In this document: piece by piece, positions 11,758 through 47,843 of the stretch
Layout: the number at the start of each line of letters is the position of its first letter
Position numbering within the stretch: position 1 is the stretch's first letter
NCBI RefSeq assembly: GCF_000712295.1
Contig: NZ_JMKI01000038.1
Span: forward strand, 1 to 64,000
Source: Synergistes jonesii
GTDB taxonomy: Bacteria > Synergistota > Synergistia > Synergistales > Synergistaceae
Length of the DNA: 64,000 nt
Reading direction: 5' to 3'
Program-made: the position numbers and the translations under genes
Notes under the pieces: model-generated
The model's database searches: none
What the model was told of the DNA's origin: nothing
The model's input: only the letters and a program-made list of their open reading frames with translations

Positions 11758-11850
11758 GGGTAAAAACCCTCCTCGTGTAATTTGTGCCGCATTGCGGCCA
11801 TAATAAAACCCGCGCGGCAGGGAGGAAGGAAAAGAACGTTCACGCACTTT

Positions 11851-11935
11851 CGCTATCCCCTTTCCATCACGGGAGACGGCCCCGTTTCCAAGGCCGCCCT
11901 AACGACCGCCTTCCATAGCCGGAAGGCCGTAGGAA
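11851..11935 (-). ncRNA. Second structured leader element, Moco-riboswitch-like
   Basis: In the tupA leader this minus-strand stretch contains GGAAACG-GGGCCGTCTCCC and then GGAAAGGGGATAGCG. It parallels GGAAACGCGGCGGCCTCCC...GGAAAGGAGAAGGGC in the Moco riboswitch at 12174-12284. A perfect 7-bp hairpin (arms 11908-11914 and 11921-11927) precedes it. I could not find a convincing closing P1 helix, so it may be a diverged second aptamer or chance similarity. Confidence 0.35.
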
Positions 11936-12003
11936 GAACAGTTTCAGGGACGTTATGACGCATACGCTTCGCCGCAGGCCAGGCAAAAACCTGCGACGCC
12001 GTT

Positions 12004-12033
12004 ATTGTACACTATCACGGCGCGCTATTTCAA
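12004..12033 (-). promoter_or_regulatory. Internal promoter for tupA
   Basis: Minus strand: -35 TTGAAA (12028-12033), 18-bp spacer, -10 TACAAT (12004-12009). It lies between the riboswitch/terminator and tupA. If active it would give a ~240-nt leader that bypasses the upstream riboswitch but keeps the 11851-11935 structure. Confidence 0.5.
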
Positions 12034-12122
12034 TACGTACAAAATATATACAATGAAATTAGGCGAGGAATGTTGGGGGCATTCCTCGCAGAAGTGGAGA
12101 GTTGTTGTGTTTAAAACGTTCC

Positions 12123-12164
12123 TGATAAATAAACGAGCCGTACCCCTTTGTACAGAGCACGGCC
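12123..12164 (-). terminator. Terminator hairpin after the Moco riboswitch
   Basis: On the minus strand GCCGTGC pairs with GTACGGC (7 bp with one G-T wobble, 13-nt loop), followed by TCGTTTATTTAT. Its position just 3' of the aptamer suggests the expression platform. The T-tract is interrupted, so efficiency is uncertain. Confidence 0.45.
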
Positions 12165-12173
12165 CCCGATAAG

Positions 12174-12284
12174 CAGAGCAGCCCTTCTCCTTTCCAAAGG
12201 GAGGCCGCCGCGTTTCCTCGACGACCCTGTCGGCAGGAGAGCCATGGATCACCTTCTTTAGGCTCGGCTGCTCGGAGAATCATT
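12174..12284 (-). ncRNA. Molybdenum/tungsten cofactor (Moco) riboswitch
   Basis: The minus-strand RNA has an 8-bp closing helix, GAGCAGCC (12266-12273) with GGCTGCTC (12176-12183). Inside it are GAGCC...GGCTC, a CCTG-ccga-CAGG hairpin, the block CGAGGAAACGCGGCGG, and CCTCCC-tttGGAAA-GGAG. The sequence blocks and helix order match my recollection of the Moco RNA motif found upstream of molybdenum/tungsten genes. The only downstream gene on this strand is tupA, about 420 nt away, consistent with control of oxyanion import by cofactor. A covariance search was not possible here. Confidence 0.75.
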
Positions 12285-12379
12285 TTTTATCATTGTCGTT
12301 TATGGTACAATAAATGCTGGAAAAAGACAAGCGCTAAAAGCTTTTTTGCAGAATTTTATGCCGAAATGGGGGCGATAGC

Positions 12380-37881: not shown

Positions 37882-37911
37882 TTGACGAAATGGCGCAACT
37901 TAGCGTATGAT
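37882..37911 (+). promoter_or_regulatory. Promoter of the mut operon
   Basis: TTGACG (37882-37887), 18-bp spacer, TATGAT (37906-37911), immediately before the cobalamin riboswitch. Confidence 0.6.
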
Positions 37912-37929
37912 TAACATAAATAAAAATAT

Positions 37930-38068
37930 TGCTGCAGAAAACGGGAATCGGGTGAAAATCCTGAACGGCCCCGCCACTGTAAGCCGCGACGAGATCGCAT
38001 TATGCCACTGGAATTTTCGGGAAGGCGCGATGGAGGATGAACGGCAAGCCAGGATACCATTCTGCACA
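37930..38068 (+). ncRNA. Cobalamin riboswitch (leader of mutA-mutB-meaB)
   Basis: The closing stem GCAGAA (37934-37939) pairs with TTCTGC (38060-38065). The core contains gggaatcgggtgaaaatcc, gaacggccccgccactgtaa and the B12 box-type aagccaggatacc, all standard cobalamin-aptamer blocks in order. The aptamer is followed by a linker and a strong terminator at 38142-38167, implying transcription attenuation when adenosylcobalamin is bound. Confidence 0.93.
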
Positions 38069-38141
38069 AAGTTGCGGCAATTCCTGCGCGGGCGGGGGTT
38101 GCTCAGTGCGTTTGCAGCAACTTGATCGCAGCAACTGTTAA

Positions 38142-38167
38142 GACCGCCCGCGGGCGGTCTTTTTTTA
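38142..38167 (+). terminator. Riboswitch-controlled terminator before mutA
   Basis: GACCGCCCGCGGGCGGTC palindrome (38142-38159) followed by T7, 36 bp before the mutA start. The G-rich segment near 38084-38100 (gcgcgggcgggggtt) could pair with the terminator 5' arm as antiterminator. Confidence 0.85.
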
Positions 38168-38202
38168 TGCCCGCGCAACTTTTAGGGAAGGGAAGCATTC
38201 GG

Positions 38203-40410
38203 ATGAACGAAACAGAGGTGAAGACGAGCGGATTCCCGCCGGTCTCTTTCGAAGAGTTCGCGCCGCCCAGCAAGGAGGAATGGCAGGGCGAAGCGGTAAC
38301 GGCCCTTAAGGGCGCGCCTTTCGAAAAACGCATGTACACCCGCACCTACGAAGGCATCACGCTGGAGCCGATCTACACGCGCGACGATCTCGAAAAGCTG
38401 CCGGGAGTCGACGGCCTGCCGGGCGAGGCGCCGTTTCTGCGCGGCACAAAGAGCGAGGGCTATATGGCGTCTCCCTGGGAGATAGCTCAGGGCTCGGCGA
38501 ACGTTCTGCCGCGCGAAGCCAACGAAGCGGTGAAGCACGAGCTCAAGAAGGGCGCTACCGTGCTGAGTTTTGAGCTCGACAAATGTACGAGGCTCGGGCT
38601 CGACCCAGATAAGGATCTCTTCAAAGGAGATTACCGCGGGCTTTCGCTCTCGACGCTGAAAGACGCCGACGAAATGCTCGACGGACTCGACTTCACGAAG
38701 ACTCCGCTGCAAATATACGCCGGAGCCTCGGCGGTCCCGCTGCTCGCGCTTACTGCGGCGCGCTCGCGCGCGCACGGAGAGAGAGAAAGGTTTAAAAGGG
38801 CGGCCGGCTGCATCGGCGCAGACCCGCTCGGGGAGCTTGCCGAGAACGGCGCTCTGCCGCTGCCGATCGACGAGCTCTACGACGAAATGGCCCTTGCGGC
38901 CAAATGGACGGAGAAGAACGCTCCTCAGCTGAAGACGCTGCTCGTTCGCGGCGACGCTTACCACAACGGCGGCGCTTCGGCGACGCAGGAGACGGGCTAC
39001 GCGATGAGCGCGGCTATAGCTTACATCAGAGCGATGCAGCTCCGCGGCATAGAGCCCGAAAAGAGCATTCCGCAGATAAAATTCAGCTTCTCGCTCGGCA
39101 CGAACTTCTTCATGGAGGTAGCGCGCCTGCGCGCTGCGAGGACGGTATGGGCGCAGGTAATCGAAGCGTTCGGCGTCGACGTGGAAAAGTACGGAAAGAT
39201 CGACATCTTCGCCCGCACTTCGCGCTTTACGCCGACAGTCTACGACCCCTACGTCAACATCCTGCGCTCGACGACGCAGGCGTTTTCCGGCGCGGTCGGC
39301 GGAGTCGACGCGATGCAGGTGACCTGCTTCGACGACGCCGTGCGCCCAGGAGGCGAGATTTCGCAACGCGTAGCGAGAAACATTCAGATAATGCTCCAGA
39401 CGGAGTTCGACATGCTTCAGCCGATAGACCCCTCCGGCGGTTCGTGGTACATCGAGCGCCTCACCTCTCAGTGCGCGAACGCTATACTCTCCGTGATACA
39501 GAAGGTCGAGAGCTACGGCGGCATGTACAGCGCGCTCAAAGCGGGCGGCGTGCAGGAGGATATAGAAAAAACTCTGAAGGAGCGCATGAAAAATCTCGCG
39601 ACCCGCAAGGACCGCGCGGTCGGTACGAATATGTATCCGAACACGCTGGAGAAACCCCTGGAAATTTCTTCGCCGAGAGGGGAGGCCCTCTACGAAGAAA
39701 GGTCTAAGGCCGTAGCGGAGTTCCGCGAGATGGCCGACGGGAAACACGCGGCGGAATGCCTCAAAAAAATCATGCGGACGCTTGACGACGGCGACGAAGG
39801 CTTTGTCGACGCGGTGATAGACGCATACATGGCGGGAGCCACGCTCGGCGACGTGAGAAAAACCCTCGACGACGGCTTCTGCGGCAGCGAAAGCGCCAAA
39901 GCGATAGGCGTCCACCGCTGGACCGAAGAATTCGAGGCGCTGCGCAAGAGGACCGAAGAATTCATGGAGAGCACAGGCAAAAGCATCCGCATATTCCTCG
40001 CGAACATGGGGCCTATCCCACAGCATAAAGCGCGCGCCGACTTCAGCACAGGCTTCATGGAAGTCGCGCACTTCGAAGTTCTGAAAAACAACGGCTTCCC
40101 GACGCCGGAAGAGGCGGCGAAGGCGGCCATAGAATCCGGAGCCGACGTCGCCGTGATATGCTCCAGCGACGACACTTATCCCGAGCTCGTCCCGTCGGTC
40201 GCGCGCGGCATAAAGAAAGCCGTGCCGAGCATGCGCGTCCTTCTTGCGGGAGCGCCGGCGCCGGAATTCAAAGATTCATACGTAGAGGCTGGAGTCGATG
40301 ATTTCATACACGTCAGGGCCAACTGTTACGAAATATTAAAGTCGATACAGGAGAGCGCGATAAACGCCGCGGAGCCCTGCAGAGGGGAGGAATCAAAATG
40401 CCGTTCGTAA
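38203..40410 (+). CDS. mutA: Methylmalonyl-CoA mutase, small (beta) subunit
   Basis: 735 residues from the ATG at 38203 with AGGGAAGGG upstream; the longer frame runs through the terminator. A TIM-barrel region includes [20 protein letters not shown] and [22 protein letters not shown]-terminal flavodoxin-like domain follows, in which the B12-binding DxHxxG is replaced ([14 protein letters not shown]). This is the usual state of the catalytically silent subunit that partners MutB. The operon converts methylmalonyl-CoA and succinyl-CoA into each other. The stop overlaps mutB by 13 bp. Confidence 0.92.
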
Positions 40411-42596
40411 ATCCTGACCTCACAAAGCTGAAGCTGAATATGGAGCCGAGGCACAGGCTCAGCTTCGAAGAATGGAAGCGCAGCGTGGAAGAAGAGACGG
40501 GAAAGCCTTTCGAAAGCCTGATGCACCGCACGATGGAACAGATAGACGTCGAACCGCTTTACACGGAGGCGGATTACGAGGGCATGAGCCACCTCAGCTA
40601 CATGGCGGGGCTGCCGCCCTTCCTGCGCGGGCCGTACCCTACGATGTATGTCACGCGTCCGTGGACGGTGCGTCAGTACGCGGGCTTCTCGACGGCCGAG
40701 GAGAGCAACGCCTTTTACAGGCGCAACCTTGCGGCCGGGCAGAAGGGGCTTTCGATAGCCTTCGACCTTGCGACGCACAGAGGCTACGACTCGGATCACC
40801 CGCGCGTGGTGGGCGACGTCGGAAAGGCGGGCGTCGCGGTCGATTCGATTCTCGACATGGAAATACTCTTCTCCGGCATTCCTTTAGGCCAGATGTCGGT
40901 CTCAATGACGATGAACGGCGCGGTCCTTCCTGTGCTCGCCTTCTATATCGTAGCGGCGGAGGAGCAGGGAGTCGACAAATCCATCCTCTCGGGCACGATT
41001 CAGAACGACATCCTTAAAGAGTTCATGGTGCGCAACACCTATATCTATCCGCCGGCGCCCTCGATGAGGATAATCGGCGACATATTCGCGTATACGTCGC
41101 GCAACATGCCGAAGTTCAACAGCATAAGCATTTCCGGCTACCATATGCAGGAAGCGGGAGCGACGGCGGACATAGAGCTCGGCTACACGCTCGCCGACGG
41201 CCTTGAATACATACGCACGGGACAGGCCGCGGGGCTCGGCGTCGACGACTTTGCGCCGCGCCTATCCTTCTTCTGGGCGATAGGCAAAAACTACTTCATG
41301 GAAGTCGCCAAGATGCGCGCCGGGCGCATGCTCTGGGCCAAGATAGTCAAGCAGTTCGGCCCTAAAAAGGCCAAGTCGATGGCGCTGCGCACGCATTCGC
41401 AGACCTCAGGCTGGAGCCTCACAGCGCAGGACCCCTTCAACAACGTCGCGCGCACCTGCATCGAAGCTATGGCCGCGGCGCTGGGGCATACGCAGTCGCT
41501 GCACACCAACGCACTCGACGAAGCGATAGCCCTGCCCACCGACTTCTCGGCGCGCATAGCGCGCAACACCCAGCTCTACATACAGGACGAAACGAGCGTC
41601 TGCAAGGTCATCGACCCGTGGGGCGGCTCCTACTACGTCGAAGCGCTGACCGACGAGCTGATACGCCGCGCCTGGGCGCATATACAGGAAGTCGAATCGC
41701 TCGGCGGAATGTCGAAGGCCATCGAGACCGGACTGCCGAAGATGCGCATCGAGGAGGCGGCGGCGCGCAGACAAGCGAGGATCGACTCAGGAAGCGAAAA
41801 GATAATCGGCGTCAACGCGCTGCAGCTCGAGCAGGAAGACCCGATCGACATACTCGAGGTAGACAACAGCGCGGTGCGCGAGGCTCAGATAGCCCGGCTC
41901 GCGAAGCTGCGCGCGAACAGGAAGCAGGAAGACGTCGACAGGTGGCTGGACGCGATAACGAAATCCGTCGAAACGGGCGAAGGCAACCTGCTCGAGCTCG
42001 CGGTCGAGGCGGCGCGCGCAAGGGCGAGCCTCGGAGAGATCTCCTACGCGATAGAAAAGGTGACGGGAAGGCATAAAGCGGTGATACGTTCCATATCTGG
42101 CGTTTATAGCAGCGAATTCGCGGAGGACGAAGTAATAGAAGAAGTCCGCAGGATGACGGATGAGTTCGAGGAACGCGAAGGGCGCCGTCCGCGCATCATG
42201 GTAGCGAAGATGGGACAGGACGGACACGACAGAGGAGCTAAGGTCGTAGCTACGGCTTACGCGGACATGGGCTTCGACGTGGACATCGGTCCGCTCTTCC
42301 AGACCCCTGAGGAAACGGCTCAGGACGCCGTGGACAACGATGTGCACATCGTCGGCATGAGCTCGCTCGCCGCCGGGCACAAAACGCTTCTGCCACAGCT
42401 CGTCGAGGAACTTAAAAAGCGCGGTAGAGGCGACATCATGGTCGTGGCCGGCGGCGTAATACCGGCTCAGGACTATCAGTTCCTCTACGACCACGGAGCC
42501 TCCGCGATATTCGGCCCCGGGACGGTGATCCCCGTCGCCGCGAAAGAGATGCTGACGATACTGAACAAGCGTCTCGCGACGAGAGTCAGCGCTTAA
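40398..42596 (+). CDS. mutB: Methylmalonyl-CoA mutase, large (alpha, B12-binding) subunit
   Basis: 732 residues. The substrate barrel contains [20 protein letters not shown] and [20 protein letters not shown], the family hallmark. The C-terminal B12 domain (~600-732) has [20 protein letters not shown] with the DxHxxG motif whose His ligates cobalt, and [17 protein letters not shown]. This is the catalytic subunit. GAGGGGAGG precedes the ATG. In an amino-acid/propionate-type metabolism it links succinyl-CoA to propionyl-CoA. No epimerase or decarboxylase gene is present in the window. Confidence 0.96.
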
Positions 42597-42598
42597 AA

Positions 42599-43765
42599 AT
42601 GGGGACAGAATCCCTCAGCGCGGCTAAGCGGACGGGGCGCCTCGAATGGCAGCCGGAGGACGCGGGTTCCGAATACGCCTGCTCCGTGATGCCGGGAGTG
42701 CCGCTTTCGCCGGACTGCAACGTACAGGCGCAGCGCGGCGGTCAGGCGCTCCCTTTGCGGAGCGCGCTCACTGCGGAGGATTACGCGAACGGGATAATCG
42801 CCGGAGACCGCGTCACGCTTTCGCGCGCGATCACGGTAATCGAGAGCAACGCGCCGAAGCACTTTGAATTGGGACAGGAAATCATCCAGAGGATACTGCC
42901 CTACAGCGGCGGGGCGATGCGCGTAGGGGTGACGGGCGTACCGGGCGCAGGGAAAAGCACTTTCATTGAAGCGTTCGGGACGTATCTGACGAAAAACGGG
43001 CACAAAGTCGCTGTGCTCGCGGTAGACCCTTCGAGCTCGCTTACAAGGGGCAGCATACTCGGAGACAAGACGCGCATGGAGAACCTTGCGCGGCAGAAAA
43101 ACGCTTTTATCAGACCCTCTCCCTCCGGCGGTTCGCTGGGCGGCGTCACGAGAAAAAGCCGCGAAACGATGCTGCTCTGCGAAGCTGCCGGCTACGACAC
43201 GATACTTGTGGAAACGGTGGGGGTCGGGCAAAGCGAAACGATGGTGCGCCAGATGGTCGATTACTTTCTCGTCATCGTCATCACAGGCGCCGGCGACGAG
43301 CTTCAGGGCATAAAAAAGGGAATAATCGAGCTGGCTGACAGCATACTCGTCAACAAAGCCGACGGCGACAACAAAATGAAGGCCCTGATGGCGCGCGCCG
43401 ATTACGAGCAGATACTCCACTATCTGCGCCAGCCTACCGAAGGCTGGAAGACGAAGGCATACACCTGTTCGTCGATCACCGGCGAAGGTATACCGGAGAT
43501 GTGGAGCGTAATAGAAGATTTCCGTGAGAACGTCACGAAGTCGGGAATCTTCATAAAGCGGCGCAAAGAACAAACAATCGAATGGGTCCGCGCGATGGCC
43601 GGCGAATATCTTCAAAACAGGATAGCCCGCTGCGCGGAGCTCACAAAATGCAGGGAAGAGATAGAAAGGAGAGTGATCGAGGGGGCAATTACTCCGACGT
43701 CTGCGGCCAAAGCGCTGACGGCGTCAATGGAAAGGCTGCTCTTCACAAACGCACGCGAAACATAA
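42599..43765 (+). CDS. meaB: MeaB/ArgK-type GTPase, methylmalonyl-CoA mutase chaperone
   Basis: G3E-family GTPase that gates cobalamin loading and protects the mutase. 388 residues. After a ~65-residue N-terminal segment, the G domain has Walker A VGVTGVPGAGKSTFIEAFG (~103-121), AVDPSSSLTRGSILGDKTRM, switch/Walker B VETVGVGQSE and the NKAD base motif (LVNKADGD). A C-terminal helical dimerisation region follows. The ATG is 2 bp after the mutB stop with little ribosome site of its own, so translation is probably coupled. The unusual N-terminal ~50 residues could include mis-assigned start sequence. Confidence 0.93.
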   Translation: MGTESLSAAKRTGRLEWQPEDAGSEYACSVMPGVPLSPDCNVQAQRGGQALPLRSALTAEDYANGIIAGDRVTLSRAITVIESNAPKHFELGQEIIQRILPYSGGAMRVGVTGVPGAGKSTFIEAFGTYLTKNGHKVAVLAVDPSSSLTRGSILGDKTRMENLARQKNAFIRPSPSGGSLGGVTRKSRETMLLCEAAGYDTILVETVGVGQSETMVRQMVDYFLVIVITGAGDELQGIKKGIIELADSILVNKADGDNKMKALMARADYEQILHYLRQPTEGWKTKAYTCSSITGEGIPEMWSVIEDFRENVTKSGIFIKRRKEQTIEWVRAMAGEYLQNRIARCAELTKCREEIERRVIEGAITPTSAAKALTASMERLLFTNARET

Positions 43766-44082: not shown

Positions 44083-44111
44083 TTGACAAATAACGGGGGC
44101 AATGATATTTT
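44083..44111 (+). promoter_or_regulatory. Promoter of the B12 receptor operon
   Basis: Perfect -35 TTGACA (44083-44088), 17-bp spacer, -10 TATTTT (44106-44111), just upstream of the riboswitch. Confidence 0.55.
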
Positions 44112-44124
44112 TTATACTGTAAAA

Positions 44125-44278
44125 GTTGAATATTTTCTGCGGAGTATGGGAATCCGGTCAAAAGCCGGAACGGCCCCTGCCGCCGTGATCGGGACGAAAG
44201 CGCATAATGCCATTGCATACAGCGAGAAGGCGCGCGATTAGGATGAACGTAAGTCGGAAAACCTGCTGCGGAGAACTT
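44125..44278 (+). ncRNA. Cobalamin riboswitch (leader of the BtuB-like receptor)
   Basis: The core blocks are present in order: tatgggaatccggtcaaaag, ccggaacggcccctgccgcc, gtgatcgggacg, and the B12-box region taagtcggaaaacctgctg. The layout is the same as the aptamer at 37930-38068. It sits 100 nt before the TonB-dependent receptor start. Confidence 0.93.
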
Positions 44279-44317
44279 GGCTTTAGCGCGCAGGAGGTGC
44301 GGGGCAGCGGCTGACCG

Positions 44318-44383
44318 TGAGAACGATACGCGGGAGACGATGCGAAATCCTCCCGCGTATATTTATTCACGGAGGTCGTTCTC
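44318..44383 (+). promoter_or_regulatory. Expression-platform hairpin before btuB
   Basis: Inner stem atacgcgggag (44326-44336) with ctcccgcgtat (44350-44360), then atttatt, resembling a terminator. Outer sequences gagaacga and tcgttctc (44376-44383) can also pair and would enclose the GGAGG ribosome site, just before the TTG start. Either terminator or ribosome-site occlusion could be the readout. Confidence 0.65.
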
Positions 44384-46369
44384 TTGCGACACAAAGCGCG
44401 CGTCATTTCATTTTTCATCGCCTTATCGCTTATCTGCACGGCTCCGCCTTACGCCGGCGAGGGCGCGGCTGAAGAGATTCAGCTGCCGGAGGAAGAGGTG
44501 ACGGCGGCGGCGGAAGAAGACGCATCTCTCTTATCCCCCGGCACTGTCTCCGTGGTCAGGCCCGAAGAGATGGAGGGCGAGCACAAAAACCTGCCGGAGC
44601 TGTTGAAAGAAGTTCCCGGCCTTCACGTCGTCGAGAGCAAGGGGCGCGGCGCCTACACTGTCGCGTCGGTGCGCGGCAGCACCGCCGCCGAGGTCTCCGT
44701 CTTCGTCGACGGGGTCCTGATGAATTTAGGCGGGGAATCTGCAGTAGACCTCTCGGCGATTCCCACGGCGAACGTCGAGAGGATAGAAATCTATCGCGGC
44801 TATGTCCCGGCGCGCTTCGCCGGAGCGTCGATGGGCGGCGTGATAAACATCATAACGAAGACGCCCGACAAGGCCGGCGGAGCCCTCTCACTGGGCGCGG
44901 GCTCCTACGGCAAATTCAATACGAGCCTCTCCTACGCTATGCCGCTCGGCGGCGGCTCTTTCTTTATCGGGGCGAATTACGAGCGCTCGGACGGCGACTT
45001 CGAATACACGAACGACAACAATACCCCCTACACGCCGGAGGATGATTACAGGGCGAAGCGCCAGAACAACGGCTATAAAAATTCCGACGTCCTGCTCAAA
45101 TGGAAAAACGACGACTGGTCGGCGCGCTTCGGCTGGAAGCGCAGCGACCGCGACCTTCCGTACGCCGCGCCCGGCGCGGACAGGGACGACAGCCCACAGG
45201 GCGCGCAGCTCGACACGAAACAGACCGACTTCTCGATCTCGCGCCGTTTCAAAAGCGGCGCCGTCGACTGGGGGATAAAGGCCGAATATCTGCATCAGAA
45301 TAAAAAGTACGACGACGAGGAGAACGTCCTTGGAGGCTGGGGCGAGCAGCACAACGAGTACGCGACGGACAGGTATGGATTTGCGATAGACGGCGCGTGG
45401 CGGCTCGGAGAAAACCACCTCGTCGAATTCTTAGCAGATTATTCAAAAGAAAAGCTGAGGGCGGAGGGAGACATCGTCACGACCTTCGGCGGGACTTCCG
45501 ATTTCCGCAGAGAGGCGGCCGACGTGCAGCTGCAGGACACTATAAGCCTCAGCAAAGACGGCACTCTGACCTTCACGCCCATCGTACGCTGGAACATGTG
45601 GGGCGGCGACGGCGAATTTTCCTTCGGCGCGGCCCTCTCCAAGGAGCTGCCGCGCGGCTGGACGATCAGGGCCTCGGGCGGCAGCTACAACAGGGCCCCC
45701 AACCTCTACGAGCTCTACGGCGACGGCGCCTTCGTCAGACCGAACGAAAATCTCGGCTGGGAGGACGGCAGCCAGTGGGACCTCGGCGTATCTTGGAAGG
45801 GAAAGCTCGCGGGCGCCGACGCCTCCGCTTCGCTGACCTACTTCGGACGCCGTTCGAACGACCTCATCGAATTCGTCATGACGAGCCCGCGCTACGGGCA
45901 GTACATAAACATAGGCAAGGCCCGCGTTAACGGCATAGAGTTCGAGGGGCGCGCCGCGTGGGACAAATGGGACGTGAAGCTCTCGGCGACGTGGACCGAC
46001 GCCAAGAACGCCACCGAGGACTACCGCGAGGAACAGCCTCTGCCGAACAGGCCGGAGTGGGAGGGCTACCTGCGCCTTTCAAGAAAGTTCCTGAAGGACG
46101 ACGCCGCGACGGCCTTCGCCGAGCTGCGCTATATCGGAGAGAACTACTACGACACGGCGGGTTCGATCAAGATGGACGACCTCTTCACCGTCGGCGTGGG
46201 GCTGCACTGGCGCATAAGGGAAAGGCTGAAGCTGACGCTCGGCGTCGACGACATATTCGACGAAGGGCCGGAATTGAAGATGTACTCGGTCAAAAACGGA
46301 CCGGAAAGGACCATGTGGTATCCGCTTCAGGGACGTACATTTTACGCGACCTTAACGTGGGAATTTTAG
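44384..46369 (+). CDS. TonB-dependent outer-membrane receptor, probable cobalamin transporter (BtuB-like)
   Basis: 661 residues. The signal peptide (RVISFFIALSLICTAPPYAG) is followed by a plug domain: LPELLKEVPGLHVVESKGRG, GSTAAEVSVFVDGVLMN, VERIEIYRGYVPARFAGASM and GGVINIITKTP. A ~22-strand barrel with aromatic strand ends follows, ending in FYATLTWEF with terminal Phe, as outer-membrane barrels require. The start is TTG 44384 with GGAGG 8 nt upstream. Control by a cobalamin riboswitch supports B12 or a corrinoid as ligand. It needs TonB-ExbBD, which is not in the window. Confidence 0.9.
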   Translation: MRHKARVISFFIALSLICTAPPYAGEGAAEEIQLPEEEVTAAAEEDASLLSPGTVSVVRPEEMEGEHKNLPELLKEVPGLHVVESKGRGAYTVASVRGSTAAEVSVFVDGVLMNLGGESAVDLSAIPTANVERIEIYRGYVPARFAGASMGGVINIITKTPDKAGGALSLGAGSYGKFNTSLSYAMPLGGGSFFIGANYERSDGDFEYTNDNNTPYTPEDDYRAKRQNNGYKNSDVLLKWKNDDWSARFGWKRSDRDLPYAAPGADRDDSPQGAQLDTKQTDFSISRRFKSGAVDWGIKAEYLHQNKKYDDEENVLGGWGEQHNEYATDRYGFAIDGAWRLGENHLVEFLADYSKEKLRAEGDIVTTFGGTSDFRREAADVQLQDTISLSKDGTLTFTPIVRWNMWGGDGEFSFGAALSKELPRGWTIRASGGSYNRAPNLYELYGDGAFVRPNENLGWEDGSQWDLGVSWKGKLAGADASASLTYFGRRSNDLIEFVMTSPRYGQYINIGKARVNGIEFEGRAAWDKWDVKLSATWTDAKNATEDYREEQPLPNRPEWEGYLRLSRKFLKDDAATAFAELRYIGENYYDTAGSIKMDDLFTVGVGLHWRIRERLKLTLGVDDIFDEGPELKMYSVKNGPERTMWYPLQGRTFYATLTWEF

Positions 46370-46414
46370 GGCGGCGCGGCCGCTTTGAAATAAAAAACAC
46401 AGGAGGGGTTTTAA

Positions 46415-47695
46415 ATGTTTAAGAAACGCGGGCTTTTGGCATTGGTTCTGGCGCTGTGCATGGCGCTGGCGGTATCGCCGGCTATGGCGGGCATCCTCTA
46501 CACGGCGTCGACCAACTGGAACACCGACAGATTCGGCATAATCAAGGACAGCGAGGCGCCGACGAAGGACGTCGTAACGAACCTCGGCGGCTCCGCCGGC
46601 TCGGGAGTCTTCTCGTTCAACAACGCGGAATGGAAATCGCGCATCGCGATAAGCCAGTACCCCGCAACGGCCAACGACACCGTCTGGTTCTACGACCCTA
46701 CGACGACGGACTGGTCGGCTCCTCTCAAGGAAGCGACGTCGCCCGTGAAAAACGTACACCACATGGAGGCCGGCGGGAAATATCTCTACGCGGCAGGCTA
46801 TGACGACGCGACGGTAGGCCGCTTCGACATGACGTCGGACGCTTTTGCGCCGGACTCCAAGATCTACACCTATACGCCGGCCGACGCCGGCTACACGGCT
46901 CACGCTGAGCGCATAGCGACGTATAACGGCGGCGTTTACGCGATATTCGCCGCGAGCAAAGGCAATTACCCGAACTACGAATACGCGCCGCACAAGATCA
47001 TAAAGTTCTCCGAAGATCTCACGCCCGCGGCGAGCGCCGACTTAAAGGGCAAGAACATCGACGGCGCCAACGTCGGCGCAACGATCCGCATAGGAGGAAG
47101 CCTCTACGTCGCGTCGATCGGCGGCAACCAGGATACCACGGGGCTCTTCAACACCGATTCGATGATCGAGAAGGTGAACCTCGACACGCTGGCTTCCGAA
47201 ACGCTTATCACCGCTTCAAAGGCCGCTGAGAAGGACGGCTCGTGGGGCAGCAATTTCTACGGCCTCGCACACGACGGAAACAGGATATATATCTTAGCCG
47301 CCTGCTGGAACGGCAGCTGGCCGGAATCCGGCAGGGATAACGTCGTAATCTACGAAACGAACGCGGAAAAGCTCGACGGCGGCGACATCGGGAACAAAAT
47401 AGCGACGCTCAGCACAAAGACCGGCTACAGCCTCGGCATCGAATACGACAGCGCGGCGAAGCTGCTCTGGGTATCCGCCGGCGACAGCGTCTACAAATAC
47501 GACGGCTCGGCTTTCACGGAGTACGACAGCACGGCGCTCGGCGGAGAGATGGCTAAGTTCGCGACGCTCACCGCTTCCGGCGTGACGCCTTCCGGCGACG
47601 GCGGCGGCGGCGGCGGATGCAACGGCGGCTTGGGCGTTCTCGCTCTCGTCGCGCTTCTGCCTCTTCTCGTCGCAAAGCGCGGCAAAAAGAAATAA
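46415..47695 (+). CDS. Secreted repeat protein (possible beta-propeller) with Synergist-CTERM-like tail, in the B12-uptake operon
   Basis: 426 residues. The signal peptide (LLALVLALCMALAVSPAMAG) precedes ~370 residues with repeating short beta-strand units, such as KYLYAAGYDDATVGRFDM, GGVYAIFAASKG, GSLYVASIGGNQ and NRIYILAACWNG. These suggest a propeller. The tail after ~395 is GDGGGGGGCNGGLGVLAL followed by a hydrophobic stretch and RGKKK, a Gly-rich/Cys/hydrophobic/basic sorting signal. It lies 45 bp after btuB with AGGAGGGG upstream, so is likely under the same riboswitch. Placement recalls Bacteroides BtuG, a surface propeller that hands B12 to BtuB, but homology is not shown. Confidence 0.75.
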   Translation: MFKKRGLLALVLALCMALAVSPAMAGILYTASTNWNTDRFGIIKDSEAPTKDVVTNLGGSAGSGVFSFNNAEWKSRIAISQYPATANDTVWFYDPTTTDWSAPLKEATSPVKNVHHMEAGGKYLYAAGYDDATVGRFDMTSDAFAPDSKIYTYTPADAGYTAHAERIATYNGGVYAIFAASKGNYPNYEYAPHKIIKFSEDLTPAASADLKGKNIDGANVGATIRIGGSLYVASIGGNQDTTGLFNTDSMIEKVNLDTLASETLITASKAAEKDGSWGSNFYGLAHDGNRIYILAACWNGSWPESGRDNVVIYETNAEKLDGGDIGNKIATLSTKTGYSLGIEYDSAAKLLWVSAGDSVYKYDGSAFTEYDSTALGGEMAKFATLTASGVTPSGDGGGGGGCNGGLGVLALVALLPLLVAKRGKKK

Positions 47696-47780: not shown

Positions 47781-47816
47781 GAGGCGGGCTTCCGAATTTT
47801 CGGACGAGCCCGCCTC
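47781..47816. terminator. Bidirectional terminator between the B12 operon and the flavin protein
   Basis: Stem gaggcgggct / agcccgcctc with an inner tccga/tcgga helix, flanked by T-rich sequence on the plus side (atttgctttgtttttt). It lies between convergent genes. Confidence 0.75.
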
Positions 47817-47843
47817 ATTTGCTTTGTTTTTTCTCCGCGTCCT

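Follow-up and report, generated by a model that had tools for sequence, protein, structure and literature searches.

The first 64,000 nucleotides of contig NZ_JMKI01000038.1 of Synergistes jonesii (assembly GCF_000712295.1; this whole stretch is called the window below) contain a cobalamin riboswitch followed by two genes. The first encodes a TonB-dependent receptor resembling the vitamin B12 receptor BtuB, and the second encodes a secreted partner protein of 426 residues. We consider it probable that this locus is a riboswitch-controlled pair of the BtuBG type, in which a receptor and a lid serve corrinoid uptake, the lid being a distant homologue of BtuG that is anchored at its C-terminus. 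The elements on which this proposal is built were all computed: the riboswitch, the gene pair, their linkage across the phylum, their co-inheritance, a propeller-type profile nearest to BtuG1, and a sorting tag carried throughout the family. The main features are as follows.

44100–44284, forward strand: cobalamin riboswitch aptamer RF00174, complete (model positions 1–189; cmscan 77.1 bits, E 2.9e-17)
44384–46369, forward strand: gene for the BtuB-like TonB-dependent receptor, 661 residues, TTG start (Pfam, NCBIfam and PDB matches)
46415–47695, forward strand: gene for the BtuG-like lid, 426 residues (open reading frame (ORF); family described below)
46415–46489, forward strand: N-terminal signal peptide, residues 1–25, cleavage near AMA/G, without a lipobox (read from the sequence)
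46481–47590, forward strand: beta-propeller-like domain, residues 23–392, the conserved domain of the family (profile against PDB; hhalign against BtuG1)
47606–47689, forward strand: Synerg-CTERM sorting tag, consisting of a Gly-rich stretch, Cys402, a hydrophobic helix and a basic end (TIGR04564 above cut-off)

A preliminary description of the locus had placed a cobalamin riboswitch ahead of a TonB-dependent receptor, and both are present, the aptamer scoring well above its covariance-model gathering threshold of 31.5 bits. The second gene does start 45 bp after the receptor stop, as had been described. The Gly-rich/Cys/hydrophobic/basic C-terminus noticed there is a Synerg-CTERM sequence (TIGR04564, 30.4 bits; cut-off 22.5), and what had been described as repeated short beta-strand units correspond to the beta-propeller repeats that the family profile matches.

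The partner family and its pairing with the receptor

Profile searches were made in 167 Synergistota genomes, each at least 80% complete. The 370-residue domain of the partner is present in 52 of them, three of which belong to a family that lies outside the order. The 426-residue protein is 76% identical over its full length in a second Synergistes genome, and since it is also recognisable this widely in the phylum, its reading frame is more than a chance one. The strict Gly/Ser-Cys-hydrophobic tail is found in 44 of the 48 complete members, the other four having a variant of it, and a motif check found no lipobox-like N-terminus in any member. All of the domains are acidic, with net charges from -5 to -45 among the complete ones. 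The domain in the window matches no Pfam family, and Pfam searches on all members gave scattered weak kelch matches and no family. Related loci were found neither among viral contigs nor among plasmids, and the nearest named relative is a metagenome-assembled genome of Synergistes, recovered from the abomasum of a water buffalo and classed in the same genus as the genome of the window. Some lids have an additional 150–750 C-terminal residues between propeller and tag (L040:8406-10175, L044:10988-12760, L047:7201-9006, L050:7252-9762 and L074:2369-5917), for which Pfam gave no match; BtuG1, too, has an added domain, a fused B12-binding BtuH domain.

The preliminary description had asked whether the gene co-occurs with B12-regulated receptors in related genomes, and the co-occurrence is very strong. 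A family member lies within 2.5 kb, on the same strand, of 57 of the 68 strong receptor homologues, and both gene orders are seen. Several of the 11 unpaired receptors are cut by contig ends (e.g. G037 C6, G050 C159, G031 C208 and G081 C177), while for G017 C74 the partner is truncated at the contig start and G050 C34 adjoins a broken partner. A few of the 11, among them G028 C166 and G040, genuinely lack one. Counted by genome, both proteins occur in 48, the partner alone in 4, the receptor alone in 4 and neither in 111 (Fisher test, 3e-32, a value overstated owing to kinship among the genomes). Tree distances for receptor and partner are closely correlated (Mantel r 0.91 for 34 pairs; permutation maximum 0.27), and where a genome has paralogous pairs, each of them clusters, in the receptor tree and in the partner tree alike, with its counterpart from other genomes. 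Receptor and partner travel as a unit; co-inheritance is expected of neighbouring genes, so the matching trees do not imply contact.

This near 1:1 pairing, in which the partner strictly adjoins a single lineage of receptors and the two trees agree closely, bears on the best-placed alternative, namely that the partner scavenges corrinoids, either bound to the surface or shed from it, in the manner of BtuH or BtuJ, concentrating B12 close to the cell without docking as a lid. We regard it as unlikely, on account of the pairing and because the nearest solved relative (see below) is a lid and not BtuH, even though several members directly follow a riboswitch on contigs that, as far as they extend, show no adjacent receptor, further large Synerg-CTERM proteins occur in the same operons, and Bacteroides thetaiotaomicron has B12-binding lipoproteins that are not lids (PMC8941943, PMC12751083).

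Linkage to cobalamin riboswitches

Linkage was measured in the 12 genomes with full riboswitch lists, comparing 24 family members with 48 other Synerg-CTERM proteins. A same-strand RF00174 riboswitch is present within 10 kb upstream of 20 of the 24 family members, and within 3 kb upstream of 17, where 0.1 would be expected. The remaining four comprise one that is 11.3 kb downstream of a riboswitch in a same-strand gene run, and three on short contigs. By contrast, a riboswitch is near only 6 of the 48 other Synerg-CTERM proteins (Fisher test, 5e-9), and these six adjoin family members in the same neighbourhoods. A mere general clustering of Synerg-CTERM genes is therefore rejected as the source of the linkage. 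A riboswitch is present in 35 of the 50 loci of the wider fetched set. The spacing from riboswitch to partner is bimodal, being mostly either 60–400 nt or about 2.1–2.6 kb, the latter corresponding to one receptor gene. There are two gene orders, riboswitch-receptor-partner in the clade of the window and riboswitch-partner-receptor elsewhere.

The partner might also be a co-regulated surface protein, whether structural, adhesive or enzymatic, that has no ligand-binding role in B12 uptake. Synerg-CTERM proteins are numerous, many having generic repeat domains, and no binding site is mapped in the partner at residue level. The difference in riboswitch linkage just described nevertheless makes this very unlikely, as does the fact that BtuG1 is the best solved match in both search directions.

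Relationship to BtuG

A profile of 40 trimmed family members was searched against all PDB chains. Its best match is BtuG1 of B. thetaiotaomicron (8ptd/8ptf, 2.5e-11; 8blw_B, 8e-11). 8BLW is the BtuB1G1 complex (PMC10404256), and the sequences of 8ptd and 8blw_B are the same over the stretch read, bar one residue. The other significant matches are to designed kelch propellers and KLHL20, followed by a weak match to DFPase. These are all propellers, which makes a beta-propeller fold likely for the partner, with a number of blades that may or may not be the seven of BtuG. A search of PDB with the single sequence of the 426-residue protein (P0001) gave no match, and its sequence homology to BtuG is seen at the profile level only. 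Alignment of the family with BtuG1 using hhalign gave a probability of 95% over 129 collinear columns. In the reverse direction, BtuG1 was searched against 1,717 ORFs from the fetched loci, of which the family makes up 3%: the best 14 matches are all family members, as are 42 of the 46 matches overall. The bit score of BtuG1 is 44.7, whereas 200 shuffles of its sequence reached at most 8.9 bits. It is worth adding that BtuG1 retrieves BtuG3 at just 4e-5 (phmmer), so that the known BtuG family is itself very divergent.

The partner domain, with a net charge of -15, is acidic like BtuG2, whose net charge is -18 and whose negative face is where B12 is captured (PMC10404256). Because the reciprocal profile searches agree, homology to BtuG appears likelier than the convergence that had been suggested in the preliminary description, although the binding site itself may be convergent. 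The idea of a Synergistota counterpart of BtuG is thus supported by the co-occurrence together with the profile match to BtuG1. The different anchoring signal that had been proposed is also confirmed, as a C-terminal Synerg-CTERM Cys tag with no N-terminal lipobox. An N-terminal lipobox is a defining mark of BtuG, and the protein is therefore described here as a BtuG-like lid and is not filed as BtuG. BtuG homologues had been found only in Bacteroidetes by BlastP at 1e-10 in an eLife study (PMC6143338), and searches of an open-access library turned up no account of such proteins from Synergistota.

The receptor

The receptor has a plug at residues 51–153 (Pfam Plug, 1.2e-18) and a barrel at residues 230–622 (TonB_dep_Rec, 2.5e-37). 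Its top NCBIfam model is TonB-B12 (TIGR01779), and its top PDB matches are to E. coli BtuB (E 8e-24). In phmmer comparisons it scores 87 bits with E. coli BtuB as against 38 bits with Bacteroides BtuB. The match to TIGR01779 is at 163 bits, which misses the equivalog cut-off of 600, and the receptor is therefore termed BtuB-like.

The least probable of the alternatives is that the pair imports not B12 itself but a compound related to it (an incomplete corrinoid, another cobamide, or a chelate of cobalt or nickel), for which one could cite the missed cut-off, the role of cobalamin riboswitches in also governing cobalt and precursor transport, and the presence of cbiK after another cobalamin riboswitch, with cbiD further on (locus L059), so that the organism may make or remodel corrinoids. 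It is opposed by the family and PDB matches of the receptor, which are to B12 receptors, and since BtuG binds cobinamide and cobalamins alike (PMC10404256), it overlaps with the proposal of a BtuBG-type pair.

Points against the proposal

The following observations weigh against a BtuBG-type pair. The alignment with BtuG1 covers about 130 columns and depends on a repeat motif, GKN...gkLYVaslGG...vDl, that is typical of YncE-like propellers. It therefore supports a common propeller ancestor with BtuG but does not extend to descent of the B12 site. The preliminary description had suggested predicting the fold, and here the profile indicates a beta-propeller with BtuG1 as its best solved relative, whereas the structural models are too weak to use. 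AlphaFold2, run on a two-sequence alignment of the window's protein and its relative L079, gave poor models, with a predicted local distance difference test (pLDDT) score of 44.6 (50.3 when trimmed) and a predicted template modelling (pTM) score of 0.42–0.53, and these were left unused. Foldseek matched the first model mostly to propellers, at template modelling (TM) scores of at most 0.25, and the second to mixed folds; both were discarded. Three divergent family members (L086–L088) have neither a riboswitch nor a receptor nearby. Finally, some receptors have no neighbouring lid within their contig (G028 C166, G023 C1 and G040). The lid is thus not indispensable for every receptor.

Proposed function

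The mechanism proposed here is drawn by analogy with BtuBG (PMC10404256); in it the partner most likely binds B12, is exposed on the surface and docks on the receptor as a lid. At low intracellular B12 the riboswitch would permit synthesis of receptor and partner. The partner would be exported by Sec and retained by its C-terminal Synerg-CTERM tag, which is probably modified and cleaved at Cys402, and it would finally come to lie on the outer surface. In that position the predicted beta-propeller, which is acidic, would catch corrinoids and cap the BtuB-like receptor; TonB-driven import through the receptor would follow, with BtuCD taking over the B12 afterwards.

The hinge of BtuG is made up of its N-terminal lipid and linker (PMC10404256). 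The only anchor seen in the 426-residue protein is C-terminal, and a lid tethered in this way would need its hinge at the other terminus. For the tag, the nearest model is the MYXO-CTERM system. There, a CPBP protease cleaves the proteins, type II secretion exports them, and their invariant Cys is a predicted lipidation site (PMC11980579). The S. jonesii genome encodes one CPBP protease and two secretins, which are the types of part used by that pathway; they fit a MYXO-CTERM-like route but prove nothing. No paper on Synerg-CTERM was found in the open-access literature.

A broader suggestion, which we put at about an even chance, is that propeller lids are a cross-phylum design and not an invention of the Bacteroidetes, with a Synergistota branch that diverged anciently, nearly always accompanies one BtuB lineage, and has a Cys-tag C-terminal tether with its hinge at the opposite end. 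If so, lid-assisted capture of B12 is older or more mobile than has been thought. An unannotated surface family, in a pair that is detectable by profiles only, would gain a function, and the undescribed Synerg-CTERM sorting route would gain its first function-linked class of substrates. The pair also offers a clean way to ask whether lid function survives tethering from the other end.

Leader region and boundaries of the unit

The remaining features of the locus concern its expression.

44083–44111, forward strand: promoter-like site, TTGACA-17-TATTTT with TG ahead of the -10 element (consensus scan, 10 of 12 matches; a match to consensus alone)
44297–44388, forward strand: predicted expression-platform hairpin, with a 3' arm that takes up part of the receptor Shine-Dalgarno stretch, cacGGAGGt, in pairing (RNA fold)
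46401–46406, forward strand: Shine-Dalgarno sequence AGGAGG of the second gene (sequence)
47781–47832, forward strand: candidate intrinsic terminator, GAGGCGGGC...GCCCGCCTC followed by a T-rich tail, at the end of the two-gene unit (by eye from the sequence)

The predicted fold of 44285–44400 has an energy of -57.8 kcal/mol (z -5.7 against shuffles), and the hairpin region is mostly conserved in the second Synergistes genome. Its pairing with part of the receptor Shine-Dalgarno sequence suggests that any switching would act on translation of the receptor. The candidate terminator was not among the sites listed by a terminator scan with a loop limit of 8. Together with the next gene, which is convergent, it indicates a two-gene unit.

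Genomic context

There are eight cobalamin riboswitches in the 2.74-Mb genome of S. jonesii. Three precede a receptor and partner pair (contigs C38, C31 and C53), one precedes BtuC- and BtuD-type ATP-binding cassette (ABC) transporter genes, and another is the one before cbiK and cbiD mentioned above. Just upstream of the receptor unit in the window, a second cobalamin riboswitch (37886–38083) lies before genes at 38122–43765 that read as a MeaB-type GTPase and both subunits of methylmalonyl-CoA mutase, and the same neighbourhood is found in G016, G021 and G030. The window also contains two tandem molybdenum/tungsten cofactor riboswitches (RF01055), about 200 bp apart, at 11841–12289 on the minus strand.

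Cobalamin riboswitches are also followed, often ahead of the receptor-lid pair, by large secreted proteins of another class (L039:9897-14345 in G000 C53, L061:4407-8741 in G000 C37, L045:12541-16993 and L042:5673-15333). They have starts such as WIESADxxWYE or SWTPDTSWYDD and contain GLUG and PKD-like repeats, and one has a confirmed Synerg-CTERM; they are possibly further B12-regulated surface proteins. The B12 gene run on contig C31 is longer, and its continuation (L040:10279-16653 in G000) encodes three Synerg-CTERM proteins (378, 532 and 280 residues). The same run has two flavin-reductase-like secreted proteins, of 252 and 280 residues, which perhaps reduce corrinoids at the surface. In two genomes a xylose-isomerase-like TIM-barrel protein adjoins BtuC-type permease genes (L062:3570-4364 and L051:304-1089); it is AP_endonuc_2 in L062 and has a similar start in L051. 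Riboswitch-linked, more distant BtuB-like receptors occur at G076 C1:1157496-1159681 and G027 C10:75913-78183, and as no lid was found in these two genomes they represent the classic lidless arrangement.

Comparison with known systems

The Synerg-CTERM tag resembles the MYXO-CTERM tag of myxosortase sorting (PMC11980579) in its C-terminal Cys motif, transmembrane helix and basic tail. It is however a different tag family, and its lipidation, cleavage and surface delivery are putative. E. coli BtuB (TIGR01779, PRK10641) shares the architecture of the Synergistes receptor and is its top family and PDB match, but the Synergistes receptor scores below the equivalog cut-off, and E. coli BtuB has no lid protein. 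BtuH and BtuJ/DUF4465 are also accessory surface proteins linked to B12 riboswitches, whereas the Synergistota family matches propellers only, and Pfam searches on its members saw no match to these families.

The closest comparison is with BtuBG of B. thetaiotaomicron (BtuG1, 8BLW and 8PTD; BtuG2, 8BMX and 3DSM; BtuG3, 8P97). The Synergistes pair differs from it in phylum, in having a C-terminal Synerg-CTERM Cys tag and no N-terminal lipobox, in a similarity that, at the level of single sequences, is insufficient for any PDB or Pfam match, and in a receptor that scores nearer to E. coli BtuB than to Bacteroides BtuB. The two systems are alike in their cobalamin riboswitch, in having a btuB-like receptor gene adjoining that of a secreted acidic protein, predicted in Synergistes to be a beta-propeller, in the presence of several paralogous pairs per genome, and in the profile and reciprocal similarity of the partner to BtuG1.

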